Shown here: positions 8,902 to 62,084 of the stretch, piece after piece
How positions within the stretch are numbered: the stretch's first letter is position 1
How the letters are laid out: every line of letters begins with the position of its first letter
Origin: Schaalia sp. HMT-172
GTDB lineage: Bacteria > Actinomycetota > Actinomycetes > Actinomycetales > Actinomycetaceae
NCBI RefSeq assembly: GCF_030644365.1
Contig: NZ_CP130058.1
Coordinates: forward strand, 434,001 to 498,000
Direction of reading: 5' to 3'
Length of the DNA: 64,000 nucleotides
Translations under genes and position numbers: made by a program
Notes under the pieces: model-generated
What the model was told of the DNA's origin: nothing
Databases searched by the model: none
The model's input: only the letters and a program-made list of their open reading frames with translations

Positions 8902-8999
8902 GCTGTTTGGTGGTGGTTGCGTCTAGGTTCTCGTGGTGGGTGCGACGGATCGTGGTGAAGGAGTTCGTTGTGGTGGCCTGGTGTGGTTTCCCAACAATG

Positions 9000-9104
9000 T
9001 CGCACGTAATTTCCATGTAAACCTTTTGAATCTTGAAATCGCATCGTTGGAATTGCAACGTTTGTGGGGTGTGTTAAAAACTGACCGCCGGGAATTACGT
9101 GCGA
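9000..9104 (+). repeat. Dispersed inverted-repeat element, copy A
   Basis: A 105-bp element bounded by TCGCACGTAATTTCC and GGGAATTACGTGCGA. The interior carries TCTTGAAATC and CGTTGGAATTGCAACG. It is one of six family copies in this window. Compared with the others, both arms of this copy differ at two positions in a complementary way (ACGTAATT against AATTACGT instead of ATGCAATT against AATTGCAT). The flank TTTCCCAACAATG is shared with copy C. It lies between the transpeptidase terminator and the GH13 gene. Confidence 0.85.
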
Positions 9105-9183
9105 GATTTATGGGGACACCATAGGGCGCTAGTGTCGGCGTGTCGTTGCAATTGCCCGGCTGGCGGCTGCGCGGCCTGCGAAC

Positions 9184-9257
9184 TTGGTGCGGGCCCTGAG
9201 ACGCGGTAGTCTGCGGATGGCTGACAGTAAGCCGCTAGTGACATGCGGCTAGCGGCT
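9184..9257 (+). promoter_or_regulatory. Promoter and inverted-repeat operator for the GH13 gene
   Basis: TTGGTG (9184-9189) and TAGTCT (9207-9212) are separated by 17 bases, a good housekeeping promoter. Just downstream of the expected start, AGCCGCTAG (9230-9238) and CTAGCGGCT (9249-9257) form a perfect 9-bp inverted repeat with a 10-base spacer. Its place fits a sugar-responsive repressor site blocking elongation. No regulator is encoded nearby. Confidence 0.5.
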
Positions 9258-9293
9258 GCATACGTAGGTTCCCCGACTCTCGGCAGGTGCTCC

Positions 9294-11027
9294 ATGTTCT
9301 TCTCTCGCGATGCTCTGAACCCCGCAGGCAACGGCCTGGGCCCCGACGAGTGGTGGAAGGGCGCCGTCGTCTACCAGATCTACCCGCGCTCCTTCAAGGA
9401 TTCCAACGGGGACGGCTTCGGTGACCTCGAAGGCATCCGACAGAAACTGGACTACCTGAAGAACCTGGGCGTGGACGTCCTGTGGCTCTCGCCGATCTAC
9501 ACCTCCCCGCAGGCGGACAACGGCTACGACATCGCCGACTACTACGACATCGATCCCATGTTCGGGACGCTCGCGGACTTCGATGCCCTGCTGGACGGCG
9601 TCCACGAGAGGGGCATGCGCCTCGTCATGGACCTGGTCGTCAACCACTCTTCCGACGAGAACCCGTGGTTCGTCGAGTCGCGCTCCTCCCGGGATAACCC
9701 GAAGCGCGACTGGTACATCTGGCGTGACCCTCGCCCCGGGTGCGTGGGAGGCGAGGCCGGGGCACAGCCCAACAACTGGGGGTCCTTCTTCTCCGGCTCG
9801 GCCTGGGCGTGGGACGAGGCCACGGGACAGTACTACCTGCATCTTTTCGACAAGAAGCAGCCCGACCTGAACTGGGATAACCCCGAGGTCCGCGCCGCCA
9901 TCTACGAGATGATGAACTGGTGGCTCGACCGCGGCGTTGACGGATTCCGTATGGACGTCATCAACCTGATCTCGAAGGATCCGGGCCTGCCTGACGGCGT
10001 CGTCTATCCGGGGCGCGCGTGGGGCGAGGGTTACCCGCACTTTTCCGAAGGCCCGCACCTGCACGAATACCTGGCCGAGATGCGCCGCGAGGTGTTCGAC
10101 GGCCGCGCCGGCACTATGACGGTCGGCGAAACTCCGGGCGTGCGCCGCGACAACGTCCTGCTGTTCACGGACCCGGCCCGGCGCGAGCTCGACATGGTGT
10201 TCCAATTCGACCACGTCGACCTCGGCCTCGAAGCGGGGAAGTTCCACCCGCGCCCGCTGCGCCCCGGCGAGCTCGCCGACTGCCTGAGCGCCTGGCAGGA
10301 AGCGCAGGGCGAGGTCGGGTGGAATAGCCTCTACCTGGATAATCATGACCAGCCGCGCGCCGTCAGCCGTTTCGGCGACGAATCGCACCGCTACGCCTCG
10401 GCGACCGCCTTGGCCACCGCGCTGCACATGCTGCGTGGCACCCCCTACGTGTACCAGGGCGAGGAGCTCGGCATGACCAACGGGGCGTTCCATGGCCTCG
10501 ACGATTTCCGTGATGTTGAAGCGCTGCGCTACTACCGCGAGGCCGTGGCGGCGGGGGAGCGCCCCGAGGCCGTCCTGGCAGGTATGCGCGCGATCGGGCG
10601 CGACAACGCGCGCACGCCCGTCCAGTGGGACGCGAGCGAGCACGCCGGCTTCACGGAGGGGGACCCGTGGATTGGCGTCACCCCGAACTACCGGGAGATC
10701 AACGCCGCCTCCCAGGTCGGTGATCCCTCTTCCGTGTACGCCTACTATCGCGCGCTTGCGGACGTCCGCCACGGCCTGCCCGTCATCGCGGTTGGCGCAT
10801 ACGAGCGCATCGCGACCCCCTCGACCGCTATTTTCGCCTACCGGCGCACCCTCGGCGAGGCCGTGGCAACGGTCCTCGTCAACCTTTCCTCACAGCCCGC
10901 GTCCCTCGGCGAGGCGGCGCGTGGGGTGGCAGGCGAGCTGCTTCTTTCTAACCGCGACCTGCCCGAGGCCGAGCGGGGAGTCCCGGCAGTCCTCGAGCCG
11001 TGGGAGGCGCGCGTTTACCTCGCGTGA
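9294..11027 (+). CDS. GH13 alpha-glucosidase / oligo-1,6-glucosidase
   Basis: A cytoplasmic glycoside hydrolase family 13 enzyme of 577 residues that splits alpha-glucosides such as isomaltose, maltose or sucrose-type substrates. The barrel starts with WWKGAVVYQIYPRSFKDSNG. Conserved regions include DLVVNHSSDENPWF, GFRMDVIN (nucleophile Asp near 221), VGETPG (acid/base Glu near 279) and LDNHDQPR (Asp near 352). No signal peptide is seen. ATG at 9294 has GGCAGGTG before it; an upstream in-frame ATG at 9243 lies inside the inverted repeat leader and is less likely. It stands alone, without transporter genes. Exact substrate is not decidable from sequence. Confidence 0.9.
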   Translation: MFFSRDALNPAGNGLGPDEWWKGAVVYQIYPRSFKDSNGDGFGDLEGIRQKLDYLKNLGVDVLWLSPIYTSPQADNGYDIADYYDIDPMFGTLADFDALLDGVHERGMRLVMDLVVNHSSDENPWFVESRSSRDNPKRDWYIWRDPRPGCVGGEAGAQPNNWGSFFSGSAWAWDEATGQYYLHLFDKKQPDLNWDNPEVRAAIYEMMNWWLDRGVDGFRMDVINLISKDPGLPDGVVYPGRAWGEGYPHFSEGPHLHEYLAEMRREVFDGRAGTMTVGETPGVRRDNVLLFTDPARRELDMVFQFDHVDLGLEAGKFHPRPLRPGELADCLSAWQEAQGEVGWNSLYLDNHDQPRAVSRFGDESHRYASATALATALHMLRGTPYVYQGEELGMTNGAFHGLDDFRDVEALRYYREAVAAGERPEAVLAGMRAIGRDNARTPVQWDASEHAGFTEGDPWIGVTPNYREINAASQVGDPSSVYAYYRALADVRHGLPVIAVGAYERIATPSTAIFAYRRTLGEAVATVLVNLSSQPASLGEAARGVAGELLLSNRDLPEAERGVPAVLEPWEARVYLA

Positions 11028-11077
11028 GGGGCGCGTGGCCCCTGGGTGCTGGCGTATGTTCGTGTACACGTCATGAA

Positions 11078-12121
11078 TCATTTATCCAGAGTGCACTCCA
11101 GCGTGGGCGTTGCACCGTCGTAAGCGAAGTCGATGCGGCATTCGAAGGAGGTCCCTTGGGGGAATTTCTTGCCGGCGTTGGGGTCGGTGGGGCCTGTACC
11201 TACTGTGAGGGTGAAGCGCGTATTCTCCAGTGGGCCGATGAAGGGAGGGTCGTTGACCAGGTCCAGTGGTTCAGTGGAGAATGCGAGGGCTCCGCAGGTG
11301 CGTTGTCGCGCGGGGTCTGGCGTGCCGGTGCGGCAAGATGCCGCGAAGGCTTCGCTTTCGGTTTGGATCCATTGGGTGAGCTTCTCGCTCGGCTCAATTG
11401 TGAAGGGGCTGGTCCACATGTTGGTGCGGATTTCCCCTGCCCCATCGGCCAGGGGGTGCTCGTAGTTGAGCGTCCAGTAGTCGGGGTTCTTGGGGGTGGC
11501 TTCCACGCGGTAGCTGCCGGGAAGGAGGAGGTAGGAACCCCGCGGGTTGCTGACCAGGATGTCGCCGACGCGAATGCTGCGCAGGCCGTCCGTGTCGATC
11601 ACCGTGGTCATCGATCCATACGAAAAGGTGTCGATCTTCCACATGCCGAGCTGACCGTTCCTCCTCGTGGTCTCTTTGAAATAGGAACTGAAGGAGTAGG
11701 AGTCGCTTGCGCGGTCGTTGAATCGAACCGTACCCTCGATCTCCGTCCATATGCCCTCGTTCTCCGTCGAGTTGTTGGGAACTGCGCGCCCCTCAAAAGT
11801 GACTTTCGAGGGGGCGTGCGCGTGTGCGGCATCCGTGAGGAAGTCATGCGAGTTTTTGTCGTCGAAAAGGGTCACGAGTTCGGGGAAGTATCTCACGGCG
11901 TCGTTGTACTTTCCGTCTTTGACGAGGTCCATGTAGCGGTTCCATGCATCCAAGGCGGTCAGGTCGGACAGGTACACGTAGTTCGACCAGTATCCCCCTC
12001 CTGCGATGGCGGCCACGAGGCCCACGCACGAGGCGGCGGCAACCCAGCGCTTGCGCTGTGGTGTGTTGTTCATTGGTGGCTCCGTCGACGAGTCGTTCGT
12101 TCTTGTTTCAGTGCGTGTCAT
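11078..12121 (-). CDS. Single-pass membrane protein, lineage-specific family (paralogue 1)
   Basis: A 347-residue protein I do not recognise. A polar N-terminus (MTRTETRTNDSSTE) and a basic RKRW lead to one membrane helix (VAAASCVGLVAAIAGGGYW, about 30-50). A 290-residue domain that should lie outside the membrane follows. Two Cys pairs in the C-terminal half may form disulfides. ATG at 12121 has GGGAGAA upstream. A paralogue at 13601-14647 has a near-identical first 55 residues, but its outer domain is strongly diverged; both share GMWK/Q and the RVGDI/V-x-(V/I)S(N/D)P segment. The Asp-Ala-x(n) segment after the helix resembles lumazine-like or nutrient-binding accessory domains only loosely, so no function is assigned. 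Confidence 0.75.
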   Translation of the reverse strand: MTRTETRTNDSSTEPPMNNTPQRKRWVAAASCVGLVAAIAGGGYWSNYVYLSDLTALDAWNRYMDLVKDGKYNDAVRYFPELVTLFDDKNSHDFLTDAAHAHAPSKVTFEGRAVPNNSTENEGIWTEIEGTVRFNDRASDSYSFSSYFKETTRRNGQLGMWKIDTFSYGSMTTVIDTDGLRSIRVGDILVSNPRGSYLLLPGSYRVEATPKNPDYWTLNYEHPLADGAGEIRTNMWTSPFTIEPSEKLTQWIQTESEAFAASCRTGTPDPARQRTCGALAFSTEPLDLVNDPPFIGPLENTRFTLTVGTGPTDPNAGKKFPQGTSFECRIDFAYDGATPTLECTLDK

Positions 12122-12202
12122 GGATTCTCCCAGGGCGTGCAACATCGAAAGGTAGCAAGCGGACGATCGGTGGCGCAAGCACCTGACAGCCGCTCAGGCT
12201 TT

Positions 12203-12288
12203 CAGTAGTAGTAGGGGCAGTCCTCCCAGCGGGGTGCGCGGTACTCGAGGAAGGCGTCGCGCCCCTCCTGGGCCTTGGTGGTGTGGTG
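12203..12288 (-). pseudogene. menB 3' end fragment (duplication scar)
   Basis: On the minus strand this reads AQEGRDAFLEYRAPRWEDC, then PYYY and a stop. It matches the last 27 residues of the intact MenB (14726-15706) with two substitutions. The sequence between this fragment and the paralogue 1 start, including GCAACATCGAAAGGTAGCAAG, is also shared with the menB-paralogue 2 spacing at 14648-14725. The fragment therefore marks the edge of a copy of the menB tail plus its downstream gene. It has no start codon. Confidence 0.85.
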
Positions 12289-12361
12289 GGTTACTGAGGG
12301 TGCTGTCGTTCGATAGTATATGGAGCGGTCAGGTTTTTTGCTCCTACGTGAGAGAGGCGTT

Positions 12362-13525
12362 ATGACGGCGAAGAAGCTTTATCACCGCCTGTACGCGCGT
12401 GTGGTGCGCGCGCGGCTGCGTTGGTCTGCGTCGCCGCCGGTATTTTTTGCGCGTAAGCGGTACTGGCTCTCAACGATGGTGGCTGTTGCTGTTGTGATCG
12501 GCGCGGTCGCCTCGGTGCTCGCGTGGCGCTCGCACGTTGAGCGGGCGAACCGGGAACTGGACGCGCAGGCTCTGGCCGGTGCGACCAGCGTGGTGAACGC
12601 CTACTGCGATGCGATCCTAAAGGGAAACGTTGACGAGGCAGCCGCGATGGATGGCCTCGCCAATTCCACCGACCCGGAGTGGATGCTCACCGATGCGGGT
12701 GAGGATTTCAGGGTTTCGGCGGGTACTCATATGTCTCTGGCAGTGTCTGAGGGGACGCTCTCGCCGGACAGACTCACTGCGACCTTCGAGGTCACGGGTA
12801 CTGATAACTTCGGGAGGGGCACGCCTGAGCATATCGAGATGGTGGCGCGCCGTGAGAGCCTGGATGCGCCGTGGATGATCGCTACGAGCATGGCACAGAC
12901 TGTGACGGTCGAGTTGCCCGCCGCCACGACCGAGGTTCTTTTCAACGGCGTTACCATCGCTTCCTTTGACCCCGTGGCGGAGTGGCCGGTCAAAGGACGG
13001 GCCCTCACGTTGACCCTCTACCCGGGGGAGTATGAGATCGGCGCGCGCTCATTCAGTAGCGAGGCGCGCCTGAGCTCGTTGCCTGGCAAGCTTCAGCAGC
13101 TCTATCGAGATGACGAGTACGGCGCAGTCCGGTCTCGGTTCGACGTTGAGCTGTCGAGTACCGGCGCCACGACGGTGAGGCCCTTCACTTTCGATGGCAC
13201 TGTCTTGCGAGCGGAAACAGAGATCGAGCTCGTGGAGCTCATCACGCAGTGTATCGACACGCAGGGAAGCTCATCGCACCTGTGCCCCGACGCGACCACA
13301 AACGCTCCACCGAGAGTCAAGCAGGTTGACCTTCGTCACGAAGTCGGGTACTACGACATTCGCGTGACCATTGATTCTCCGACGACCTTCACGATTGAGA
13401 GGCTGCGTGTCCCGAACCCAGCGCCCGGCACAGCCGAGTCATACACGGGCAGCGGCACCATGTCCTACGACGAGAACGGCAACGAAGCGATCACCGGGAT
13501 CACCCTCGTCCCGAGCGAGGCCTGA
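12362..13525 (+). CDS. Single-pass membrane protein with PEGA-like segment, unknown function
   Basis: A 387-residue protein. A basic N-terminus ends in ARKRYW, then a membrane helix (MVAVAVVIGAVASVLAW, about 38-57) and a long outer domain. That domain holds NAYCDAILKGNVDEAAAM, resembling nutrient-transport-factor-like folds. It also has VLFNGVTIASFD followed by LTLTLYPGEYEIGARS, which resembles a PEGA repeat. ATG at 12362 has AGAGAGG upstream. TTACTG (12291-12296) and TAGTAT (12314-12319), 17 bases apart, give a promoter. It lies between two minus-strand paralogues of similar topology, suggesting a shared cell-surface role. No specific function can be given. Confidence 0.75.
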   Translation: MTAKKLYHRLYARVVRARLRWSASPPVFFARKRYWLSTMVAVAVVIGAVASVLAWRSHVERANRELDAQALAGATSVVNAYCDAILKGNVDEAAAMDGLANSTDPEWMLTDAGEDFRVSAGTHMSLAVSEGTLSPDRLTATFEVTGTDNFGRGTPEHIEMVARRESLDAPWMIATSMAQTVTVELPAATTEVLFNGVTIASFDPVAEWPVKGRALTLTLYPGEYEIGARSFSSEARLSSLPGKLQQLYRDDEYGAVRSRFDVELSSTGATTVRPFTFDGTVLRAETEIELVELITQCIDTQGSSSHLCPDATTNAPPRVKQVDLRHEVGYYDIRVTIDSPTTFTIERLRVPNPAPGTAESYTGSGTMSYDENGNEAITGITLVPSEA

Positions 13526-13600
13526 CTCTCCCGCAGATGCCGACTAGCCCACGGTCGGGGCGGCTGGACCCAGGTCGGCGCGGCGCCGGGGCCGTCAGAA

Positions 13601-14647
13601 CTATCGGCGTCGTTTGCCCACCGTGCATGAGGCGTCGGGTGAGTCTGAGGTATCAGGGAAGCTGATGTCACAGGTAACGTAAACAGTCGAGATATGGTAG
13701 CCCTCTTTGAGGATGGTCTCGCCCATGTCGACGTAGAACCCGAACCAAGTCGGATGCACTTCGAAGCTGATGAGGTCAACAGGTGGGAGGGCGGGGGCAT
13801 CAGAGCGCAGTGCCAGGACACCGCATTTCTGCACATCAGCAGGATTGAGGGAAGGCATGGAAGAGCTGAAACTGGTCCGGCAGTCCATCATGAAAGCCTG
13901 GGCTGCCCCGTTGGCCCAATCCTTCAGCTCGTCGCTGGCGACCACCTCGAACGAGGGCGGACCGGCCGTGCGTAGTTCCCCCACGTTGTCGCCGAGCGGG
14001 TAGGTAAAGTCGACTTTCCAGTAGGGTTCGTGATCCGCGTGCGCCTCCATGCGATACCGTCCCGCAAAGAGGAGATGCCGCGCGTCGGGGTCAGAGATGG
14101 CCACGTCACCCACGCGCACGTCGCGCATGCCGGAGAAAGAAACGCTTTGAATCGCCGTGTCAAAACTTGCTTGCCACATGCCAAGCGAGCCGTTTCTTCT
14201 CTCGGTACTTCTCAATGAGAAGGAAAGAGTATCGGGCTCCGAGGAATCGTCGTAGACGAAGGTGGTGTCAAACCATTCAGACGTTGAGCGTGAGGTATGC
14301 GTGCTGACCTCGCTGACCTCGCTAACCCCGCTGACCTGCGGTGCGCCGACGTGGGAACGATCTATCAGCAGTTCGGTGGAAAAACCCTCCGTGAGGAACG
14401 GGTTGCTCCCGTCCGTGAGTGAAAAAGCCTCCTCGTACTGGCCGTCCGCGATAAGCGAGGCGAAGTGAGCGGCCGCGTCCTGCGCGCTCACGTCGGACAG
14501 GTACACGTAGTTCGACCAGTAGCCCGCCCCGGACGCGGCGGCCACGAGGCCCACGCACGAGGCGGCGGCAACCCAGCGCTTGCGCCGTGACGGGCGCGAT
14601 GGAGACTCCGTCGACGAGTCATTCCTTGCTGTTTCAGTGCGTGTCAT
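13601..14647 (-). CDS. Single-pass membrane protein, lineage-specific family (paralogue 2)
   Basis: A 348-residue paralogue of the protein at 11078-12121. The first 55 residues are almost the same (MTRTET, NDSSTE, RKRWVAAASCVGLVAA, GYWSNYVYLSD). The outer domain keeps only scattered identity, such as RRNGSLGMWQ and RVGDVAISDP. A short tract GVSEVSEVSTHTSRSTS near residue 120 comes from a small DNA repeat (GACCTCGCT). ATG at 14647 has GGGAGGATCC upstream. It lies 78 bases downstream of menB on the same strand and may be cotranscribed with it. Function unknown. Confidence 0.75.
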   Translation of the reverse strand: MTRTETARNDSSTESPSRPSRRKRWVAAASCVGLVAAASGAGYWSNYVYLSDVSAQDAAAHFASLIADGQYEEAFSLTDGSNPFLTEGFSTELLIDRSHVGAPQVSGVSEVSEVSTHTSRSTSEWFDTTFVYDDSSEPDTLSFSLRSTERRNGSLGMWQASFDTAIQSVSFSGMRDVRVGDVAISDPDARHLLFAGRYRMEAHADHEPYWKVDFTYPLGDNVGELRTAGPPSFEVVASDELKDWANGAAQAFMMDCRTSFSSSMPSLNPADVQKCGVLALRSDAPALPPVDLISFEVHPTWFGFYVDMGETILKEGYHISTVYVTCDISFPDTSDSPDASCTVGKRRR

Positions 14648-14725
14648 GGATCCTCCCCGAGTGTGCAACATCGAAAGGTAGCAAGTGGACGATCGGTGAC
14701 GCAAGTAGCCGACAGCCTCAGGTCC

Positions 14726-15706
14726 TCAGTAGTAGTAGGGGTAGTCCTCCCAGCGGGGTGCGCGGTGCTCGAGGAAGGCGTCGCGCCCCTCCTGGGCCTC
14801 GGCCGTCATGTACGCCAAGCGCGTGGCCTCGCCCGCGAAGACCTGCTGGCCGGCCAGACCGTCATCCGCCAGGTTGAAGGCGAACTTCAGCATGCGGATG
14901 GCCTGCGGGGACTTCGTCGCGATGGTCGCCGCCCACTCCAGCGCGGTCTCCTCCAACTGCGCGTGCGGCACCGCGCGGTTGATGACGCCCCAACGCTCGG
15001 CAGTCTCAGCGTCGTAGCGCTCGGCCAGGAAAAAGATCTCACGCGCCCGCTTATCCCCGGCCTGACGGGCCAAAAGCGCGGAGCCGTAGCCGGCATCGAA
15101 AGACCCCACGTTCGCGTCCGTCTGCATGAAGGCCGCGTGCTCGATCGAGGCCACCGACAGGTCCGCCACCACGTTCAGCGAATGCCCGCCGCCCGCCGCC
15201 CAGCCGGGAACCGCCGCGATGACGACCTTCGGCATCGTGCGGATCAGGCGCTGGACCTCCAGGATGTGCAGGCGCCCGGCGCGCGCCGGGTCGATCTGCT
15301 CGCGGCGCTGGGCGGTTGCGGCCTCGGGGTCCGCGCCCTCGACCTCGTAGCGGTACCCGTCCCGGCCTCGGACCCTCTGGTCGCCGCCCGAGCAGAACGA
15401 ATAGCCGCCGTCGCGCGCCGACGGCCCGTTGCCCGTCAGAATGACGGCCGCGACCGAGGAAGTCTGGCGCGCGTGGTCGAGCGCGCGGAACAGCTCGTCG
15501 ACCGTGCCCGGGCGGAAGGCGTTGCGAATGTCGGGGCGATCGAAGGCGATGCGCACCACCGGCATGTCCGCGCCCTCGGGGCGTCCATCCGCCTCGGGTC
15601 CGCGCGAAATACCGCGGTGATACGTGATGTCGGAAAAGTCGAAGCCCTCGACCTCGCGCCAGCGGGTCGGGTCGAAGGTGTCGGAGACGAAGGGCAGAGC
15701 ACTCAT
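14726..15706 (-). CDS. menB: 1,4-dihydroxy-2-naphthoyl-CoA synthase MenB
   Basis: A crotonase-fold enzyme of 326 residues that closes the second ring of the naphthoquinone, acting on o-succinylbenzoyl-CoA. Recognisable MenB segments are GYSFCSGGDQRVRGRDGY, the oxyanion-hole loop PGWAAGGGHSL, QTDANVGSFDAGYGS, and the C-terminal tail AFLEHRAPRWEDYPYYY, which is characteristic of MenB. ATG at 15706 is preceded by TAGAAT seven bases away, the leaderless pattern; an upstream ATG adds 40 low-quality residues. It diverges from menC across a 347-base gap. Part of its 3' end is duplicated at 12203-12288. Confidence 0.93.
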   Translation of the reverse strand: MSALPFVSDTFDPTRWREVEGFDFSDITYHRGISRGPEADGRPEGADMPVVRIAFDRPDIRNAFRPGTVDELFRALDHARQTSSVAAVILTGNGPSARDGGYSFCSGGDQRVRGRDGYRYEVEGADPEAATAQRREQIDPARAGRLHILEVQRLIRTMPKVVIAAVPGWAAGGGHSLNVVADLSVASIEHAAFMQTDANVGSFDAGYGSALLARQAGDKRAREIFFLAERYDAETAERWGVINRAVPHAQLEETALEWAATIATKSPQAIRMLKFAFNLADDGLAGQQVFAGEATRLAYMTAEAQEGRDAFLEHRAPRWEDYPYYY

Positions 15707-15873
15707 GCCTCGGATTCTAATCGACGAGGCCGGGGCGGGGAAGGCGCGAGGAAGCCCGGGTCCGCGCGTCGAGCGGGCGTCGTATCCGCCGTGACCTCGC
15801 GGCGTATCGGGCGGAGGAACCCGCAAGCTAACCGCACGGAATGAGGCGTGTCGGAAAGGGGAAAGGGCTTACG

Positions 15874-15904
15874 TTGACTAGTCACATTTGATGTGATGTA
15901 TCAT
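15874..15904 (+). promoter_or_regulatory. Promoter region of menC-menD with inverted repeat
   Basis: TTGACT (15874-15879) and TATCAT (15899-15904) are 19 bases apart. Between them CACAT-TTG-ATGTG (15883-15895) is a perfect inverted repeat. The surrounding 15840-16053 is AT-rich compared with neighbouring genes. It is the only visible control region between divergent menB and menC and could be a repressor site. Confidence 0.45.
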
Positions 15905-16053
15905 ATAGCGCTATTTGCCAGGCGTTTGGTAAGGGGGAAGAGTCTGTCACTTCTTGATGGTTAGCGCAAAAGGGCCGTACAAGTGTCAGTGAGAACGAGT
16001 TGAGGATAAGCGCAGGTTGCGCGACAATGTTACCGACATGTAAGGAGGGGCCA

Positions 16054-17112: not shown

Positions 17113-17121
17113 GCTGGGCGC

Positions 17122-19020: not shown

Positions 19021-19116
19021 CACGGTTTTCAGGGAACTCACAGGGAGCTTCCAGTGCGCCTTGGAGGAAACGACGCATACTGGTGAACAACTTATGAACT
19101 GACACCAGAGGACACC

Positions 19117-24199: not shown

Positions 24200-24427
24200 T
24201 CGCGTTGGGTGCCGAAAGCGCGGCGCGCCCTCGGGGCTGGGTGGGCTCAGTGCCCGCGCGCTGGGTTATATTGCTGTGCAGTGCTGGTTGTTGGTGCGCG
24301 CGCCGCGGGTTTTCTGGGCGCCGAGCCTTGCGGTTCCTCTGGCGTCCTGCGCGCCGGTGGGGCCTTCGCGGCTGGTGTTGTTCGGTGCGTTGCTCTGATG
24401 CCCAGGTATGGCTCTCAACCAGTAATT

Positions 24428-24542
24428 TCGCATGCAATTTCCCCGCAACTCTTTCAAATCTTGAAATCAGATCGTTGGAATTGCAACGTTTTCAGACTTT
24501 ATTGAAACTTCATCCAATCGAATTGCATGCGACTTTTCTAAG
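24428..24542 (+). repeat. Dispersed inverted-repeat element, copy B
   Basis: A 115-bp element from TCGCATGCAATTTCCCC to CGAATTGCATGCGA. The interior contains CTCTTTCAAATCTTGAAATC and CGTTGGAATTGCAACG. The middle matches the reverse complement of copies D-F (CTCTTTCAAACATTGAAACC), showing they are one family in two orientations. It is intergenic, before menJ. Confidence 0.85.
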
Positions 24543-24871
24543 GCCATGCCTCGCTGCCGCCCGCGGGTGCCGTGGCTAGGCCCGTGTCTCGAAGCGCGCC
24601 CGTGCTCTCCAGTTCGAGTAACCGCTTGCGTGACAAGTGTTGCGAGTACGAGTAGGTGGGCGGGAATGAGGTCGGAAGGGCTTCGGCGCGAGCCCGTCCC
24701 GAGCGGGTGCGTCGGCCTCGTTTCGCGGCGGCCAGCCCTCGTCAGCGCTCGTGGAGGCGAGGTTGCCGCCAACATTTACGACAGGGAAACGTTGCGCAAA
24801 TGGGGGTGGAGGGCGTGGCCCGCCCCGGCCTCGTTGCCCCAAAAGACGCCAAAAAGTGCGCTCGGTCGCCG
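24543..24871. other. Intergenic stretch with no recognisable gene
   Basis: About 330 bases between the repeat element and the menJ control region. I see no supported reading frame, RNA gene or hairpin terminator here. It contains two copies of the common GGCCTCGTT motif (near 24716 and 24830). Confidence 0.5.
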
Positions 24872-43976: not shown

Positions 43977-44081
43977 TCGCATGCAATTTCCCTGTCAACC
44001 TTTTATGTATTGAAATAGTGTCGTTGCAATTCCAACGTTTCTGGGTGATGAGAAAAGTTCGGTCAACCGAATTGCATGCGA
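43977..44081 (+). repeat. Dispersed inverted-repeat element, copy C
   Basis: A 105-bp element from TCGCATGCAATTTCCC to CGAATTGCATGCGA. Its core palindrome reads CGTTG-CAATTC-CAACG, where copies A and B have CGTTG-GAATTG-CAACG: the central hexamer is the reverse complement. The left flank TTCCCCAACAATG matches copy A. It lies upstream of fprA. Confidence 0.85.
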
Positions 44082-51765: not shown

Positions 51766-51785
51766 GCCCCCTAGGGGCCGCGTAG

Positions 51786-52836: not shown

Positions 52837-52839
52837 GTT

Positions 52840-55718: not shown

Positions 55719-55720
55719 TT

Positions 55721-56638
55721 ATGTCTTCGACGATCCGTGGCGTTGTCCCGCCCCTGGCTATCCCGCTGAAGGACGGCGAGCTCGACGTCCCCTCGCTCGA
55801 GCGTCACATCAACCGCATGATCGACGCCGGCCTCGACGGCCTGTTCGTCTCCGGCTCCACCGGTGAGGTCGCGTTCTCGACCGCCGAGCGCCGCGCCCAG
55901 ATCCAGCGCGAGGCCGTGCGCATCGTCGACGGCCGCGTCCCGCTCCTGGTCGGCGTCATCGACACCGAGACCGAGCGAGTCATCGAGAACATCATGGCCG
56001 TCGAAGAGATTGGCGGCGCCACCGGCGTCGTCGCGACCGCCCCGTTCTACGCCCTCGGCGGCGAGACCGAGGTCGAGCGCCACTTCCGCCTCCTCAAGGA
56101 GAACACCAGCCTGGAGCTGTGGGCCTACGACATCCCCGTGTGCGTGCACACGAAGCTCTCGCCCGACCTGCTCATGCGCCTGGGCCGCGACGGCGTCATC
56201 GACGGCGTCAAGGACTCCTCCGGCGACGACGTCGCGTTCCGCTGGCTGTGCCGCGCCAACGAGGCAGCCGGCCACCCGCTCCAGCTCCTCACCGGCCACG
56301 AGGTCGTCGTCGACGGCGCCTACATGTCCGGGGCGGACGGGTCCGTGCCCGGCCTGGCCAACGTGGACCCCGAGGGCTACGTGCGCCAGTGGCAGGCCTA
56401 CGAGAGGCGCGACTGGGAGGCCGTGCGCAGCGAGCAGGACCGCCTCGCGGACCTCATGCGCATCGTCCAGGTGAAGGGCGTGCAGGGCTTCGGTGCGGGC
56501 GTCGGTGCCTTCAAGGCCGCCCTGCACCTGCTCGGCGTCTTCGATTCGCCCGAGATGCCGCGCCCGGTTGCCGCCCTCGAGGGTGACAATGTCGAGCACG
56601 TCGCCTCCGTGCTGCGCTCGGTCGGCCTGCTCTCCTGA
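55721..56638 (+). CDS. nanA: N-acetylneuraminate lyase family protein
   Basis: A class I aldolase of the DHDPS/NAL family, 305 residues, splitting N-acetylneuraminate into ManNAc and pyruvate. SGSTGEVAFST carries the carboxylate-binding G-S-T-G-E, WAYDIPV the catalytic Tyr, and DGVKDSSGDD the Schiff-base Lys near residue 164. By sequence alone it could be another DHDPS-family lyase; adjacent nanK and nanE and the importer make NanA the best call. GGAGAG precedes the ATG, two bases after the ATPase stop. Confidence 0.85.
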   Translation: MSSTIRGVVPPLAIPLKDGELDVPSLERHINRMIDAGLDGLFVSGSTGEVAFSTAERRAQIQREAVRIVDGRVPLLVGVIDTETERVIENIMAVEEIGGATGVVATAPFYALGGETEVERHFRLLKENTSLELWAYDIPVCVHTKLSPDLLMRLGRDGVIDGVKDSSGDDVAFRWLCRANEAAGHPLQLLTGHEVVVDGAYMSGADGSVPGLANVDPEGYVRQWQAYERRDWEAVRSEQDRLADLMRIVQVKGVQGFGAGVGAFKAALHLLGVFDSPEMPRPVAALEGDNVEHVASVLRSVGLLS

Positions 56639-56642
56639 TACG

Positions 56643-56717
56643 TCGACGAGGCCGGGGCATTCCCTTCCGTGCATGCGCCGCCGCGTCGCGCACCCCCGCC
56701 CCGGCCTCGTCGATTTT
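56643..56717 (+). terminator. Terminator-like long hairpin between nanA and nanK
   Basis: TCGACGAGGCCGGGGC and its perfect 16-bp complement enclose 39 bases and are followed by ATTTTT. It uses the ACGAGGCCGGGG motif. It should reduce nanK-nanE expression relative to nanA. Confidence 0.7.
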
Positions 56718-56749
56718 TCTGATACCCCGCACTTTTCGTAAGGATCCTC

Positions 56750-57670
56750 ATGACTACGCTCCTTGCCCTCGATATCGGTGGCACCAAAGTCGGGTGGGGC
56801 ATCGCCTGGGCCGGTGACACCTACGAGGTCACCGAGCGCGGATCGATCCCCACCGACGCGATGCGCGGCGGGGCCGACGTGGCGGCTCGCATCTGCGCTC
56901 TCGCGGCCTCCCTGGCCGCCTCGCACCCTGCCGTGTCGGGTGTTGCCGTCGCCAGCGCTGGCGTCGTCGACCCGGCCACCGGCGACATCGTCTCCGCCAC
57001 GGGCACGATGCCCGGCTGGGGAGGCACTCACCTCGGTGCTCAGCTTCAGGCAGCGACGGGCCTGCCCGTGCGCGTCCTCAACGACGTGCACGCCCACGGC
57101 CTGGGCGAGGCGACGCTTGGCGCCGGACGCCCCTACCGCGCTGTCCTGTCCATCGCCGTGGGAACCGGAATCGGCGGCGCCCTGGTCGAAGACGGCCGCG
57201 TGGCCTTCGGGTCGCGCGGCATCGCCGGGCACGTGGGCCACATTCACCACCACTTCGCTCCCGACCTGACGTGCTCGTGCGGCCGCAAGGGTCACATCGA
57301 GGCCTTCTGTTCCGGCTCGGGTATCACGGCCTGGTACGACTCTCTGCGCAGCGAGTCCGACCCCGAGGTCGACGGCGGGCGCGCCCTGCAGGAGCTCGCC
57401 GAATCCGGCAACGCCCTGGCCGCCGCCTGCTTCTCCCGCTCCGCGTTCGCGCTCGGCGAGGCCACGGCCTCGTTGGTCAACTGCGTGGACCCGGGAGTCG
57501 TCATCCTCTCCGGGTCCATGACCCGCTCCGGGGACATCTGGTGGGACGCCCTGCGCGAAGGCTTCGCGGCCTCCGCGATGACACCCGTCGCCGACACACC
57601 CATCCTCGTTGGTTCCCTCGGCGGCGACGCGCCGCTGCTCGGAGCCGTTTCCTTCTTCCTGCACGCATAG
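56750..57670 (+). CDS. nanK: ROK-family kinase, probable N-acetylmannosamine kinase
   Basis: A 306-residue sugar kinase that would phosphorylate ManNAc at carbon 6. It has the phosphate-1 motif LALDIGGTKVGWG, LNDVHAHGLGEA with catalytic Asp, AVGTGIGGALV, and the ROK region IAGHVGHI. In the zinc motif the expected C-x-C-G-x-x-G-C reads CSCGRKGH, with His replacing the third Cys. ATG has AAGGAT upstream. nanE starts 9 bases after the stop, confirming the pathway context. Confidence 0.85.
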   Translation: MTTLLALDIGGTKVGWGIAWAGDTYEVTERGSIPTDAMRGGADVAARICALAASLAASHPAVSGVAVASAGVVDPATGDIVSATGTMPGWGGTHLGAQLQAATGLPVRVLNDVHAHGLGEATLGAGRPYRAVLSIAVGTGIGGALVEDGRVAFGSRGIAGHVGHIHHHFAPDLTCSCGRKGHIEAFCSGSGITAWYDSLRSESDPEVDGGRALQELAESGNALAAACFSRSAFALGEATASLVNCVDPGVVILSGSMTRSGDIWWDALREGFAASAMTPVADTPILVGSLGGDAPLLGAVSFFLHA

Positions 57671-57679
57671 GAGTTCACC

Positions 57680-58354
57680 ATGCACCCGCTCATTGCTTCC
57701 CTGAAGGGCAAGCTCATCGTCTCCGTCCAGGCCTACCCGGGCGAGCCCATGCGCCACCCCGAGACGATGGCGCAGATCGCCCGTGCCGCCGAGATCGGCG
57801 GTGCCGCGGCGATTCGCTGCCAGGGCCTGTCCGACATTTCCGCAACCAAGGGCCGCGTCGACGTGCCCGTCATCGGCCTGTGGAAGGAAGGCCACGAGGG
57901 CGTCTACATTACGCCCTCGCTGCGCCACGCCCGCGCCTGCGTCATGGCCGGCTCCGACATCGTCGCCCTCGATGCGACGGACCGCCCGCGCCTCGACGGC
58001 CTGAGCTTCGCGCAGACCGTTGCGGCCCTGCGCGAGGACGGCACCCTCGTCATGGCCGACTGCGGCTCCTTCGAGGACGCCCAGCGTGCCGTCGATGCCG
58101 GAGTGGACATCGTGTCCACGACCCTGGCCGGCTACACGGGCGACCGCGTCAAGACCGACGGGCCCGACCTGGAGCTGCTGCGCGAAGTCGTCGCCGCGTT
58201 CCCGGACGTCCCCGTGATCTGCGAGGGTCGCGTCCATACGCCCGAGCAGGCCGCCGCGGCCATCGAGGCCGGCGCCTTCGCCGTCATCGTCGGCACCGCC
58301 ATCACGCATCCGACGTCGATCACGACGTGGTTCAAGGCGGCCGTGGAGGGCTGA
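57680..58354 (+). CDS. nanE: N-acetylmannosamine-6-phosphate 2-epimerase
   Basis: A 224-residue beta/alpha-barrel enzyme converting ManNAc-6-phosphate to GlcNAc-6-phosphate. Family segments are LIVSVQAYPGEPM, GAAAIRCQGLSDI, VIGLWKEGHEGVYITP, DIVALDATDRPR, DCGSFEDA, VSTTLAGYT and ICEGRVHTPEQAAAAIEAGA. GGAG stands before the ATG. It is the last gene of the sialic acid cluster; a strong hairpin follows. No nagA/nagB are nearby, so the product must join GlcNAc breakdown encoded elsewhere. Confidence 0.92.
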   Translation: MHPLIASLKGKLIVSVQAYPGEPMRHPETMAQIARAAEIGGAAAIRCQGLSDISATKGRVDVPVIGLWKEGHEGVYITPSLRHARACVMAGSDIVALDATDRPRLDGLSFAQTVAALREDGTLVMADCGSFEDAQRAVDAGVDIVSTTLAGYTGDRVKTDGPDLELLREVVAAFPDVPVICEGRVHTPEQAAAAIEAGAFAVIVGTAITHPTSITTWFKAAVEG

Positions 58355-58375
58355 TCCTGTCGCTGCTGGGACAGT

Positions 58376-58407
58376 GCGCGGGCGGGAGCTTTGGCTCCCG
58401 CCCGCGC
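58376..58407 (+). terminator. Hairpin terminator after nanE
   Basis: GCGCGGGCGGGAGC and its perfect complement form a 14-bp stem with loop TTTG, 21 bases after the stop. Confidence 0.85.
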
Positions 58408-58572
58408 TTCGTTGCTGGGGGGTGCGCCAGTGGCGCGTTGGGGCACAAATGCATTGGGACTGTGCTGCATTGGGCGTCCAGTTTCGATGTGGGGAGATTC
58501 GTTGTGGCGATGGGGACGTTCGCGCGCCCTACGCCCTTGCATTGCACGAAGCGGAACTGGTCTGGGAGGTCG

Positions 58573-58710
58573 GCCACGGCCTTGTGCCTGTCGTCTGGGG
58601 CGGCTTCGTTTCCCGGACAGGCAAACCCGCCACGGCCTCGTGCCTGTCGTATGGGACGGCTTCGTTTTCCGGACAGCCAAACCCGCCACGGCCTCGTGCC
58701 TGTCGTCTGG
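58573..58710. repeat. 56-bp tandem repeat upstream of murB
   Basis: Units start at 58573, 58629 and 58685 with GCCACGGCCTCGTGCCTGTC, followed by GGGACGGCTTCGTTTTCCGG and ACAGCCAAACCC; the third is partial. The 420 bases between nanE and murB otherwise contain only a short direct repeat TGCATTGGG near 58450-58480 and no supported gene. Confidence 0.85.
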
Positions 58711-58776
58711 AGCCTTGCGCTCGCGGGGCGAGGCGGGGTTAGGCCGATCGAGCGCCGGGCGACTAGGCTTAGAGGC

Positions 58777-59865
58777 ATGACGACCCTTGCTGATCTGACG
58801 ACCCTGCGCGTGGGCGGCCCCATCGCCCGCCTCGTGCCCGCCACGTCCGCCGACGCCCTGGTGGAGGCCGTTCGCGCGGCCGATGCCGCCGGTGGCCCGC
58901 TCCTCGTTGTCGGCGGCGGGTCGAACCTGCTGGCCTCCGACGCCCCTTTCGAGGGCACGGTCGTGGACGTGCAGCCTTTCGGCGAGATCACCTCCATCAT
59001 CCACGAGGACCCGGCCGGATCTGTCGTCGTGCGCGCCGGCGCGGGCACGGTCTGGGACGCTTTCGTCTCCTGGACTCTGTCCGAGGGACTCTCCGGCATC
59101 GAGGCGCTCTCCGGCATCCCCGGGACCGTCGGTGCCTCCCCGGTGCAGAACGTGGGCGCCTACGGCCACGAGGTGGCCGAGACCATCGAGAGCGTCGAGG
59201 CCTACGACCGCCTGACGGGCATCGTCGTGCGCCTGGCGCCCTCCGACCTCGTCTTTGCGTACCGCTCCTCGGCGATCAAGCGCAGCGTCGGCGAGCCCGG
59301 CCTGGGCGACCGTCCCTGGGGGCCCACCGGCCGCTGGGTGGTCCTCTCCGTGGACTTCCGCCTCGAGCGCTCGCCCCTGAGCGCCCCCGTCATGTACGCC
59401 GAGCTGGCGCGCCGCCTCGGCGTCGAGGCCGGGGAACGCGCCGACGCGTCCCTGGTCCGCTCCACCGTCCTGGAGCTGCGTCGCGGCAAGGGCATGGTCC
59501 TGGACCCCGCCGACCACGACACGTGGAGCGCCGGTTCCTTCTTCACCAACCCGATCCTGCCCGAGGCCGCTGCCGCCTCCCTGCCCGAGGGCGCGCCTCG
59601 CTTCCGCGCGGGGGAGGGCCTCGTCAAGACGAGCGCCGCCTGGCTCATCGATCACGCGGGCTGCTCCAAGGGCTTCCATCTGCCCGAGGCCGGGGACCCG
59701 CCGCGCGCGTCCCTGTCCACCAAGCACGTCCTCGCCCTCACGAACCGCGGCGGCGCGAGCGGCGCCGACATCGAGGCCCTGGCCCGCGCCGTGCGCGAGC
59801 GGGTGCGTGAGGCGTTCGGCGTGACCCTGGTGCCCGAGCCGGTCACGGTCGGCATCGCCTGGTAG
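58777..59865 (+). CDS. murB: UDP-N-acetylenolpyruvoylglucosamine reductase MurB
   Basis: A flavoenzyme of 362 residues completing UDP-N-acetylmuramate in cell-wall synthesis. It has TTLRVGGPIARLVP, VVGGGSNLLASD for FAD, GIPGTVGASPVQNVGAYG, YRSSAIK, and SAGSFFTNPIL with the catalytic Ser. The frame is open far upstream, but the family starts at the ATG at 58777, which has TAGGCT seven bases before it (leaderless). The upstream open stretch is antiphase nanK/nanE sequence and repeats. The conserved actinobacterial order rpmG-murB-add is interrupted on both sides here. Confidence 0.92.
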   Translation: MTTLADLTTLRVGGPIARLVPATSADALVEAVRAADAAGGPLLVVGGGSNLLASDAPFEGTVVDVQPFGEITSIIHEDPAGSVVVRAGAGTVWDAFVSWTLSEGLSGIEALSGIPGTVGASPVQNVGAYGHEVAETIESVEAYDRLTGIVVRLAPSDLVFAYRSSAIKRSVGEPGLGDRPWGPTGRWVVLSVDFRLERSPLSAPVMYAELARRLGVEAGERADASLVRSTVLELRRGKGMVLDPADHDTWSAGSFFTNPILPEAAAASLPEGAPRFRAGEGLVKTSAAWLIDHAGCSKGFHLPEAGDPPRASLSTKHVLALTNRGGASGADIEALARAVRERVREAFGVTLVPEPVTVGIAW

Positions 59866-60002
59866 GGGGCCACCTGGCCGGGTGACGGTGGGCATCACGT
59901 GGTAGTGGATTGCGTGATCGTCGCTTCGCCCGTCGTGGGCTGGGTAGCGACGTTGATGTGTGTACCGTCAGGCGCCGGATGTGTCCGCTTTCTGAGTAGC
60001 CA

Positions 60003-60113
60003 CGATCCGGATAGGTTGTCACGATCCGGATAGGTTATGCGCATCCGGATAGCTTAATAACCTATCCGGATCTTCATAACCTATCCGCGTGTTCATAACC
60101 TATCCGGATGCGA
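60003..60113. repeat. 19-bp CTATCC/GGATAG array, three plus three units
   Basis: Three units of ATCCGGATAGGTTGTCACG type, a centre GGATAGCTTAATAACCTATCC, then three facing units of AACCTATCCGGATCTTCAT type, all on a 19-base step. The centre is the exact reverse complement of the 21-kb array centre. It lies after murB. Confidence 0.9.
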
Positions 60114-60267
60114 ACCGTCGGTCGCCGAGGTGGTCTGCGTTTTGGGCACCGCTGTGGCTGTGGGCCACGGGTGACCGGGCAACGACTGTGTTTGCATCCT
60201 CCTGTAAATGCCGTCGATACCGTCGATGCCGTCGATGCCGCAGGTTCCGCTGAGGCCTCCCCAAATT

Positions 60268-60373
60268 TCGCATGCAATTCCCCGCAGGGTGTCCCGGGAC
60301 GTGGCCTGAAAACCGCGGAATATCAACGTTCTGGTTTCAATGTTTGAAAGAGGTGTGGGGGAATTGCATGCGA
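60268..60373 (-). repeat. Dispersed inverted-repeat element, copy D
   Basis: A 106-bp element from TCGCATGCAATTCCCC to GGGGAATTGCATGCGA with perfect terminal arms. Inside: CCTGAAAACCGCGGAATATC and GGTTTCAATGTTTGAAAGAGG-type sequence containing the small hairpin TTTCAA-TGT-TTGAAA. On the minus strand the core aligns with copies A-C. It is nearly identical to E and F. Confidence 0.9.
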
Positions 60374-60436
60374 GATTGCGGTGGCGTGGAATCTTGGGAG
60401 TGTTGAAGAGAAGCTTGCCTGCGCTCGCGGATCCGT

Positions 60437-60543
60437 TACTCGGATAGGTTGTCACGATCCGGATAGGTTATGCGCATCCGGATAGCTTAATAACCTATCC
60501 ATATCTTCATAACCTATCCGCGTGTTCGTAACCTATCCGCGTG
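60437..60543. repeat. 19-bp CTATCC/GGATAG array overlapping the end of hepT
   Basis: Three facing units on each side of a GGATAGCTTAATAACCTATCC centre, as at 60003. Its last unit TATCCGCGTGACG contains the stop codon and last codons of the hepT gene. It is preceded by CTGCGCTCGCGGATCCGT, also found before the array at 61751. Confidence 0.9.
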
Positions 60544-60928
60544 ACGCTGCGGCGCGCAGGCGCGCGATCATGTCGGGCACGTTGCGGGTGACGGCCGTCC
60601 ACAGGAGCTGGTCATCCATGTTCTGGTACCCCGAGTGTGCCGCGATGTTGCGGGTCGTGCGCAGGGCGCGCTTCTCCGAGGAAGTCAGGGCATCCATGTA
60701 GGGTGCGTACTCTTCGCGTTCCAGGAACGCGGCCAGCCGAATGATCACCATGCAAGCCGAGTCATACTCCGGGCAATCGGCGCTGAAAGCCTCTGCGGGG
60801 ACAGCGGCAACCCGCTCGATGCGGTGGGCGATGACGTCGAGTTCGTGCAGGAAGTTCTCAGCATCGAAACTGGGCGCGTGTCTGCGCGCCACTCGCGGTC
60901 GAGGCGTGAAGGAAACAGACTCGCTCAT
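60533..60928 (-). CDS. HepT-like HEPN ribonuclease toxin (DUF86)
   Basis: A 131-residue all-helical HEPN protein, the predicted RNase toxin of a HepT/MntA pair. The active-site motif is RTTRNIAAHSGYQNMDDQLL: Arg-x4-His is intact. The Tyr that MntA proteins modify is two residues after His in most HepT proteins (H-x-Y), but here it reads H-S-G-Y, one residue later. ATG at 60928 overlaps the MntA stop (ATGA). The last codons lie within the repeat array. In this class MntA neutralises HepT by adding AMP to that Tyr. Confidence 0.8.
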   Translation of the reverse strand: MSESVSFTPRPRVARRHAPSFDAENFLHELDVIAHRIERVAAVPAEAFSADCPEYDSACMVIIRLAAFLEREEYAPYMDALTSSEKRALRTTRNIAAHSGYQNMDDQLLWTAVTRNVPDMIARLRAAASRG

Positions 60929-61395
60929 AGTGCTACGGCCTCATCAACGGCAGTTCGCAGTGCCTCGGGTACGTGAGTGTCCGCGTGAACCTCCGTCGGG
61001 AAGCCGGTGAGCTCGCACGCGAACGATGCGATGTCCGCCAACTCGAACAGCGATAGCTCGCGGGTGGGCGTGCCGATCAGGTCAATGTCTGACTCGAATC
61101 CGTCCGTTCCCCGGGCAACTGAGCCGAAGACGCGGAGGGAACCGAGGCCTCGTTCCTGTGCGTAGCTGCTGATGGAAGGCGCGTAGCGGGCGAGCGGCAC
61201 AGAGGGTCGGTAGTCGGCGACGCGGAGGATGCGTTCGAGCAGTTCGGCGGAGACTGCGCGCCTGCCGGACTCGATCTGCGCGAGCGTCGACTGGCTCATC
61301 CCGGTCATCGCCGCCAGCTCGGCCTGCGTGAGGGACGCGTCCCGACGTGCAGCGCGCACGAGGGACGGCGCATCGTCACGACGAAACCGGCTCAT
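60925..61395 (-). CDS. MntA-like antitoxin: XRE helix-turn-helix fused to minimal nucleotidyltransferase
   Basis: A 156-residue fusion. Residues about 10-62 form an XRE HTH (LTQAELAAMTGMSQSTLAQI ESGRRAVSAE). Residues about 85-156 form an MNT domain with VFGSVARGTDGFESDIDLIG, where G-S-x10-D-x-D is exact. The HTH presumably represses the operon and the MNT part AMPylates the HepT toxin. ATG at 61395 is preferred over upstream in-frame ATG at 61545, as the extra part would run through repeat DNA. A perfect 20-bp palindrome lies 9 bases upstream and overlaps CACTAT, a likely -10 box. Confidence 0.85.
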   Translation of the reverse strand: MSRFRRDDAPSLVRAARRDASLTQAELAAMTGMSQSTLAQIESGRRAVSAELLERILRVADYRPSVPLARYAPSISSYAQERGLGSLRVFGSVARGTDGFESDIDLIGTPTRELSLFELADIASFACELTGFPTEVHADTHVPEALRTAVDEAVAL

Positions 61396-61404
61396 GCCTC
61401 CATG

Positions 61405-61424
61405 ATAGTGCACGCGTGCACTAT
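61405..61424. promoter_or_regulatory. Perfect 20-bp palindromic operator of the toxin-antitoxin operon
   Basis: ATAGTGCACGCGTGCACTAT is fully self-complementary. On the minus strand its end CACTAT can serve as -10, so a bound XRE-MNT dimer would block its own promoter. Confidence 0.75.
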
Positions 61425-61539
61425 TGGTGAAACGGTCGTCGGTAGGTACGAGGCCGGGGTCTGTGGTCGTCCCGAGGTGGCCGACTCGGGTGATCGGACG
61501 GGAAAGAAGCAACCGGACTGAGAGAGGGATCCCCACATT

Positions 61540-61645
61540 TCGCATGCAATTCCCCGGAGTGTGTTTTGAATCATGTCCTGAAAACCGCGGAATATCAAGG
61601 TTCTGGTTTCAACGTTTGAAAGAGGTGCGGGGGAATTGCATGCGA
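61540..61645 (-). repeat. Dispersed inverted-repeat element, copy E
   Basis: 106 bp, TCGCATGCAATTCCCC to GGGGAATTGCATGCGA, same interior as copies D and F (GAAAACCGCGGAATATCAAG, TTTCAACGTTTGAAAGAGG). It lies upstream of the mntA promoter. Confidence 0.9.
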
Positions 61646-61750
61646 GATTGTGGGAGAACTGTGCTGATCCTGCGCACGCTGATAGTTCGAGGATGGGCGG
61701 GGAGGTGGCGTCGTCAATGAAGTACGCGCCTGTGCTCGCGGATCCGTGAC

Positions 61751-61853
61751 GTGGATAGGTTGTCACGATCCGGATAGGTTATTCGCATCCGGATAGGTTA
61801 ATAACCTATCCATATCTTCGTAACCTATCCGCGTGTTCATAACCTATCCGCGT
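61751..61853. repeat. 19-bp CTATCC/GGATAG array between copies E and F
   Basis: Three plus three units with the same 19-base step; the centre reads GGATAGGTTAATAACCTATCC, here perfectly symmetrical. The flank CTGTGCTCGCGGATCCGTGA before it and GTCGTCGGTCGCCGCGGTGG after it match the flanks of the arrays at 60437 and 60003 respectively. Confidence 0.9.
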
Positions 61854-61978
61854 GCGAGTCGTCGGTCGCCGCGGTGGTCAGCGATTTGGGCGCCGCTGTG
61901 GGCGTGGGCTGCTGCGGGCGACCGAGCAGTGACCGCGTTGGCGTCCCGTTAGATTCCATAGAGACACCTCCACAAATT

Positions 61979-62084
61979 TCGCATGCAATTCCCCGGAGGG
62001 CATCCGGGGGTACGTCCTGAAAACCGCGGAATATCAACGTTCCGATTTCAAAGTTTGAAAGAGGCGCGGGGGAATTGCATGCGA
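61979..62084 (-). repeat. Dispersed inverted-repeat element, copy F
   Basis: 106 bp with perfect 16-base terminal arms, interior as in D and E (GAAAACCGCGGAATATCAAC, TTTCAAAGTTTGAAAGAGG). It lies 91 bases beyond the stop of the adenosine deaminase gene. The 90 bases between hold GCACTACGCC-type short repeats. Confidence 0.9.

Follow-up and report, generated by a model that had tools for sequence, protein, structure and literature searches.

Six copies of a short repeat lie between called genes in a 64,000-nucleotide stretch of the Schaalia sp. HMT-172 genome (contig NZ_CP130058.1, positions 434,001 to 498,000; hereafter the 64-kb window), and our analysis indicates that this Schaalia repeat is probably a non-autonomous small interspersed repeat resembling a miniature inverted-repeat transposable element (MITE). 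Three copies run on the plus strand with cores of 105 bp: copy A (9000..9104), which carries the GCACGT arm allele on arms that are exact reverse complements, and copies B (24428..24532) and C (43977..44081), both with the GCATGC allele. Copy B is the top match of the family model in its own genome (116.4 bits). Copies D (60268..60373), E (61540..61645) and F (61979..62084) lie on the minus strand with cores of 106 bp, and D has a CCGCGG-type middle. Pairwise identity among the six ranges from 0.58 to 0.88, with D to F forming the closest group. In every copy one 12-base arm is the exact reverse complement of the other, and the single-strand DNA folds have z-scores between -2.7 and -5.3 relative to dinucleotide shuffles. 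The initial annotation had placed and oriented these copies correctly, save that it ended copy B at 24542, ten bases too far; against its length range of 105-115 bp we measured 105 bp (A-C) and 106 bp (D-F). Its observation that both arms of copy A had changed together (GCACGT against GCATGC in the other five) was confirmed, as was the intergenic location, which holds for six of six copies in the window and for 94 of 96 examined genome-wide.

The conserved signal extends into both flanks of the core. Over 131 copies, AAT occupies positions -4 to -2 in 96-98% and C positions -10 to -8 in 68-79%, the left signal fading at about -16; on the right, [AC][AT]TTT is followed by a G-rich stretch that fades at about +12. 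Paired ends of about 27 bases and a unit of about 130 bp would fit these frequencies. In copy A, the left outer arm (TGGTTTCCCAACAATG, 8984..8999, plus strand) stands where the commonest form in the family is about TGGTTCCCCAACAATG, and the right outer arm (9105..9116, plus strand) is pairable with it, as judged from flank frequencies and fold. An end of the element comprises an outer arm of about CCCCAACAAT / ATTTTGGGG and the nearly invariant TCGCAYGYAATT; between the two ends lie two hairpins and a variable right half. The hairpins, defined by pairing over 106 copies, are exemplified on the plus strand of copy B by P2 (TTCAA-atc-TTGAA, 24453..24465) and P3 (CGTTG-gaattg-CAACG, 24473..24488). 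Mean GC content is 45% over 96 copies of the HMT-172 genome against 67% in the window, making the element AT-rich relative to its host. Shorter units also occur: five of 83 bp (L205:5913-5995, L140:1362, L118:2477, L165:7789 and L192:1300) match the family model only at the terminal 13-27 positions, and one of 63 bp (L093:2181) is a shortened family member with 58 model positions matched.

Pairing over the 106 copies is high in the arm stem P1 (98.4% of cells), in P2 (90.2%) and in P3 (94.3%), and reaches 63% in a proposed fourth helix; changes on both sides were found in three of five P2 pairs and two of five P3 pairs. The covariation score was 0.151, against 0.115 in shuffled and 0.038-0.059 in slid alignments. 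Pairs changed on both sides numbered 10 against 6.8 in shuffles (reached by 10 of 500), and further pair types 33 against 30.4 (reached by 56 of 500). The greater part of the covariation is due to P1 columns 6 and 8. Linked with each other, these columns make up two alleles, GCATGC and GCACGT, which are at the same time alleles of the terminal inverted repeats (TIRs); wobble and half-changed forms are also present. The compensated arm pairs initially noticed in copy A thus proved both real and general, with the same allele triplet in both arms of 232 of 264 distinct full copies. Since matching arms are also expected of a TIR element, they are by themselves no argument for an RNA. The proportion of the two alleles (TGC:CGT, counted in fetched copies only) was 47:28 in G000 (the HMT-172 genome), 1:19 in G019, 4:25 in G011 and 23:8 in G023. 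Restriction avoidance was considered as a cause of the alleles and rejected, as GCATGC outside the elements was not clearly under-represented in nine genomes (in G000, 225 sites seen against 226.9 expected).

We then asked how abundant and how widespread the element is. The arm class TCGCAYGYAATT, a 12-mer, occurs at 89 forward and 84 reverse sites in the 2,533,704-base genome, while the same pattern read backwards occurs at none, a difference far beyond chance. A covariance model (R2) built from 106 copies (alignment A1) gave 143 matches in this genome, which were merged across strands because the element is nearly palindromic, leaving at least 97 distinct places of 104-107 bp, each spanning the full model. 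With 150 of 462 candidates scored this is a lower bound, and the true copy number may be a little above 97. By blastn the element was found in 11 of 58 genomes, HMT-172 included, all within the genus. Model searches, which were confined to the order, found it in 11 of 35 genus genomes with 1 to about 113 matches per genome (113 candidates scored), and an order-wide search with stricter filters and ten candidates scored per genome found it in five of 396 genomes and one of 109 genera. A scan of public genome contigs for the exact paired ends returned at least 120 stretches, 80 of them listed, and among the matches listed are Schaalia odontolytica, Schaalia sp. ORNL0103, Actinomyces bouchesdurhonensis and Actinomyces sp. 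HPA0247. The matches listed also include JVOJ01 and JVKM01, labelled Sanguibacter keddieii 250_SKED and Xylanimonas cellulosilytica 352_XCEL; these records are probably mislabelled members of the genus. Carriage by phages or plasmids was rejected, as copy B with its flanks had no blastn match in plasmids or phages and the exact paired-end pattern had none in viral contigs. In the literature on Schaalia and Actinomyces repeats, MITEs, palindromes and clustered regularly interspaced short palindromic repeats (CRISPR), no title or abstract opening describes the element, subscription papers not being covered. No described family is matched to the Schaalia repeat, and the kind itself is known from other bacteria.

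Evidence that the element inserts came from two settings. In the first, a CRISPR-like array of two blocks with the 37-base repeat GTCTTAATGCACCTTTTGGCGCTCGGTGCTTTCTGAC (L215:3081-11220; G000:C1 about 828080-836219) holds 60 repeats with up to six substitutions and two more that are interrupted by element copies. The two insertions have their right junction within the repeat in common and differ in the left junction; the overlaps are 11 and 5 bases, and the left arm is preceded by 31 and 26 additional bases. The two copies also differ in their interiors and arm alleles, and they therefore probably represent separate events. In the second setting, one orthologous convergent spacer, read by eye, is filled in G000, G019, G023 and G011 and empty in G034, G028, G022, G025, G031, G021 and G006. 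In G010 the match at this site runs through the element, so that the spacer, though not itself extracted, is probably filled there as well. A separate comparison showed a short hairpin in G028 at the place that a copy occupies in G019.

The position of the copies relative to genes, called with a simple and crude purpose-made caller, was far from even. Written relative to the element, the neighbours of 96 copies in the HMT-172 genome were ++ in 41, convergent (+-) in 37, -- in 12, divergent (-+) in 5 and undefined in 1; the 77 copies in loci of other genomes were +- in 35, ++ in 29, -+ in 7, -- in 5 and undefined in 1. An orientation set by the downstream gene, as initially proposed, fits five of six copies in the window (the downstream gene of D is convergent) but is not supported genome-wide, where that gene is co-directional for 46 of the 95 copies with both neighbours called and the upstream gene for 78. 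Because 37 of these 78 occupy convergent spacers, in which either orientation counts, tandem spacers provide the informative figure: 41 copies run with the genes and 12 against them in the HMT-172 genome, and 29 against 5 in the fetched loci of other genomes. Among HMT-172 spacers of at least 150 bp, drawn from fetched loci mostly selected around copies, a copy was held by 33 of 49 spacers between convergent genes, by 43 of 136 between tandem genes and by 4 of 59 between divergent genes (convergent versus divergent, p = 2e-11); ten loci not selected for copies contained 38 such spacers, none with a copy.

Distribution along the chromosome was also uneven, with 30, 14, 5, 10, 0, 2, 4, 9, 8 and 15 of the 97 copies in successive tenths from coordinate 0 and 76 in the half around this coordinate. 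Thioredoxin reductase genes of actinobacteria often lie near the origin, and one is found here at 2.2-3.4 kb. Together with the coding-strand bias (plus-strand coding fraction 0.64 in one half of the chromosome and 0.34 in the other; GC skew was uninformative), it led us to presume a replication origin near coordinate 0. Seventy of 97 copies run away from this point, that is, with presumed replication. In tandem spacers, copies run with the genes 31 to 3 when gene and replication direction agree and 10 to 9 when they disagree; replication direction matters about as much as gene direction. A terminator-like hairpin (z above 2.5 from mononucleotide shuffles, within 90 bases after the stop) precedes 41 of 75 copies (55%); the corresponding figures are 42% for 95 control genes and 9% for 150 random 90-mers. 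The possibility that the element is the terminator of its upstream gene is weakened by this, though not refuted, since such hairpins already stand before about half of the copies tested.

Once in place, copies can be followed between genomes. Syntenic copies have a mean identity of 0.79 (303 pairs) against 0.69 for random copies (507 pairs). We selected 15 orthologous pairs with outer flanks at least 75% identical, leaving out pairs that were not of 105 bp, lay at a locus edge or had unlike flanks. Among them, change amounted to 0.3% in P1 outside the two allelic columns, 0.8% in the four outer P2 pairs and about 5% in P3, and to 31% in the P2 loop, 24% in the linkers, 16% in the right half and 15% in the outer flanks. 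A clean allele on both sides is present in 57 of the 90 syntenic pairs with matching interiors; both arms differ in 13 of the 57, and random copy pairs share the arm allele half the time. There are also mosaic copies, for example L071:8866 and L136:1395, whose cores are identical throughout and whose sequences differ beyond the core. Matching arms are kept. Selection on each copy is not proved by these comparisons, as a similar picture would arise if copies with common stems but different loops exchanged sequence.

How, then, is the Schaalia repeat best explained? The initial annotation had offered an RNA, a MITE and a DNA hairpin site without choosing among them; the MITE-like reading is the best supported, and an RNA is less likely. 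We favor a MITE-like repeat because CRISPR-like repeats are interrupted by it, because filled and empty sites exist, because the 83-bp variants share its ends only, and because its range is narrow. The repeat is a short non-coding unit with TIRs present in many copies (97 places, 104-107 bp), and its insertion can be set against an empty site both in the two CRISPR-like repeats and in the filled or empty orthologous spacer. Its spread would have depended on a recombinase or transposase acting in trans and recognising its ends, perhaps in folded form. The mobilising activity may have been lineage-specific, with a mobiliser since lost or unrecognised, and copies would have survived where they were least harmful, past the 3' ends of genes.

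Several observations weigh against this reading. Target-site duplication is inconsistent, with overlaps of 11 and 5 bases at L215 and none clear at the filled or empty spacer. An insertion sequence (IS) with the same ends, which the initial annotation had suggested seeking as the parent, was absent among exact ends when the whole genome was scanned: of the 89 forward TCGCAYGYAATT sites, 88 mark the ends of family copies and the remaining one is part of an 83-bp variant, reverse sites not being itemised and mismatched ends being possible. A MITE with a known IS parent is thus unproven. The transposase searches, limited to Y1_Tnp and DDE_Tnp_1, gave no Y1_Tnp match in 35 genus genomes (a control search was positive in 5 of 14 known genomes) and no DDE_Tnp_1 match in the HMT-172 genome. 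Partial copies appear rare, at 3 of 304 hits (these three were left out of the counts), with two strong solitary ends in 316 loci (L047:1923-1954 and L054:3577-3608) from which the rest of the copy is absent; decaying transposons do not usually show so little truncation, although the loci had been selected around full copies. Finally, the long-term conservation of the stems suggests something beyond passive debris.

Other candidates for a parent or mobiliser were also examined. A profile scan for degenerate ends over 316 loci from several genomes (2.77 Mb), with copies masked, found no inverted end pair 200-3500 bases apart, and the 35 hits left were mostly ends of 83-bp variants. An IS4-type mobiliser, prompted by the 11-base overlap, was set aside on the same DDE_Tnp_1 result. 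The solitary end at L054:3577 lies about 50 bases past a transposase-like frame, ISL3-like by eye; within the first 4.2 kb of the locus no second end exceeded a score of -6, and we therefore take this arrangement for a broken copy with an IS inserted next to it. An IS30-like frame was also seen by eye beside a copy in G019.

An unlikely alternative is that the element is a structural site at the DNA level, a cruciform or a pair of protein-bound inverted arms that works in place, as proposed for the bacterial interspersed mosaic elements (BIMEs) of E. coli, its mobility belonging to history; a nucleoid or topology site past gene ends would be an example. Such a site would fit stems that change far less than loops, linkers, right half and flanks in the 15 orthologous pairs, the joint difference of both arms in 13 of 57 syntenic pairs, an allele make-up that varies by genome, and the location of about half of the tested copies beyond a terminator-like hairpin. 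It would also fit unit lengths of 105, 83 (five units) and 63 bp (one unit), spaced by about 21 bases, but this series is thin, the 63-bp unit being itself a shortened member of the 105-bp family. Against a DNA site, exchange among stem-sharing copies could also produce the pattern of change, given that loops diverge more than flanks and that mosaic copies exist; the orthologous pairs are few and non-independent, and 24 of 35 genus genomes have no match. As a variant of the mobile reading, we also entertain, as a rather doubtful joint proposal, a single-strand hairpin element that would have moved on the lagging-strand template without a transposase of the RAYT (REP-associated tyrosine transposase) type, while the end preference of its recognising factor shifted between GCATGC and GCACGT from species to species and the ends of the copies in each genome followed. 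It is suggested by the 70 of 97 copies running with presumed replication, by an excess of G-U over A-C on the oriented strand, by the species-specific alleles and by the 13 of 57 both-arm differences.

The same excess bears on a structured RNA, either a 3' untranslated region element of the upstream gene (an RNase III target, a stabiliser or a terminator) or a small RNA, which we regard as improbable. On the oriented strand, 171 alpha-type copies hold 89 G-U and 51 A-C cells, although the associated p = 0.0017 assumes independent cells, which they are not, and in P1 the counts over 131 copies were 24 and 18. A T-rich stretch after the stem and the orientation in tandem spacers (41 to 12 and 29 to 5) point towards RNA, but replication and gene direction account for orientation about equally well. 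Half of the copies have no terminator-like hairpin before them, but such hairpins precede 55% of 75 copies, so that many may lack co-transcription, which makes RNA less likely. Nor was there an Rfam match: with Rfam 15, a gathering search of the window returned three tRNAs only, and positions 24380-24580 of the window gave no match at E values up to 1. A repetitive extragenic palindromic (REP) or REPIN element moved by a RAYT transposase appears very improbable. The Schaalia repeat is indeed extragenic, palindromic, about 100 bp long and oriented with presumed replication in 70 of 97 cases, but its arms are longer than a REP, and a RAYT origin was rejected on the absence of Y1_Tnp from all 35 genus genomes searched. 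No GTAG or CGTC tag was noticed by eye, with no search aimed at the tag.

Other features of the surrounding spacers deserve mention. Between copies D and E, at 60536-61395 of the window, a HepT-like gene (just below the Pfam cut-off) lies beside a gene with helix-turn-helix and nucleotidyltransferase domains, a layout like that of HEPN/MNT toxin-antitoxin pairs. A second spacer repeat family, composed of GGATAGGTTAT / ATAACCTATCC blocks in inverted order, is found at 60000-60118, 60440-60540 and 61755-61855 of the window and near other element copies (L025:600-720 and L205:6195-6300). Further repeats, read by eye and including GCGAAAAAGTTCGCCCTGC inverted pairs and tandem CAAAGGTGTTGGCGGTTTCAAT units, crowd the spacers after an L,D-transpeptidase gene (L277-L283).

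Well-known small interspersed repeats of this type are those of enterobacteria, Neisseria and pneumococci. The Schaalia repeat adds an abundant example from the actinobacteria, in a high-GC genus that lives in the human mouth, with about 100 spacers filled per genome. Its two end alleles, matched between the arms and present in species-specific proportions, offer a natural test of how such an element and a putative mobiliser change together. If the element proves ordinary, it is still useful for annotation and as a typing marker. S. odontolytica XH001, of the same group, is reported to be the host of the epibiont TM7x and the subject of a saturated transposon library (PMC12369343).

As for known systems, REP, BIME and REPIN sequences resemble the Schaalia repeat in being extragenic palindromes at gene 3' ends, in tandem clusters and with an orientation partly linked to replication, but the Schaalia repeat is a long multi-hairpin unit in a genus with no Y1_Tnp in 35 genomes. 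RIME1 of rhizobia has a similar size and palindromes in spacers, a likeness of description. Correia elements (CREE) have a TA target duplication. Enterobacterial repetitive intergenic consensus (ERIC) and Correia elements are reported to affect transcripts through RNase E or RNase III sites (PMC10969869). As described there, they too are extragenic, palindromic and TIR-bearing; the Schaalia repeat differs in its actinobacterial host and in that no TA duplication was seen. In pneumococci, RUP is linked to IS630-Spn1. RUP and BOX, with 110 and 125 copies in strain ATCC 700669, are folded, have paired TIRs and occur mainly in one species group; both reflect past spread with slow new insertion, between convergent genes they are over-represented, as is SPRITE, and BOX has been linked to ISSpn2 (PMC3049150). 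The Schaalia repeat has other ends, no exact-ended IS in its genome and no consistent target-site duplication. It nevertheless shares with RUP and BOX about 100 copies per genome, folded TIRs, a range largely limited to a species group and enrichment in convergent spacers, and by behavior these two pneumococcal repeats are its closest parallels.

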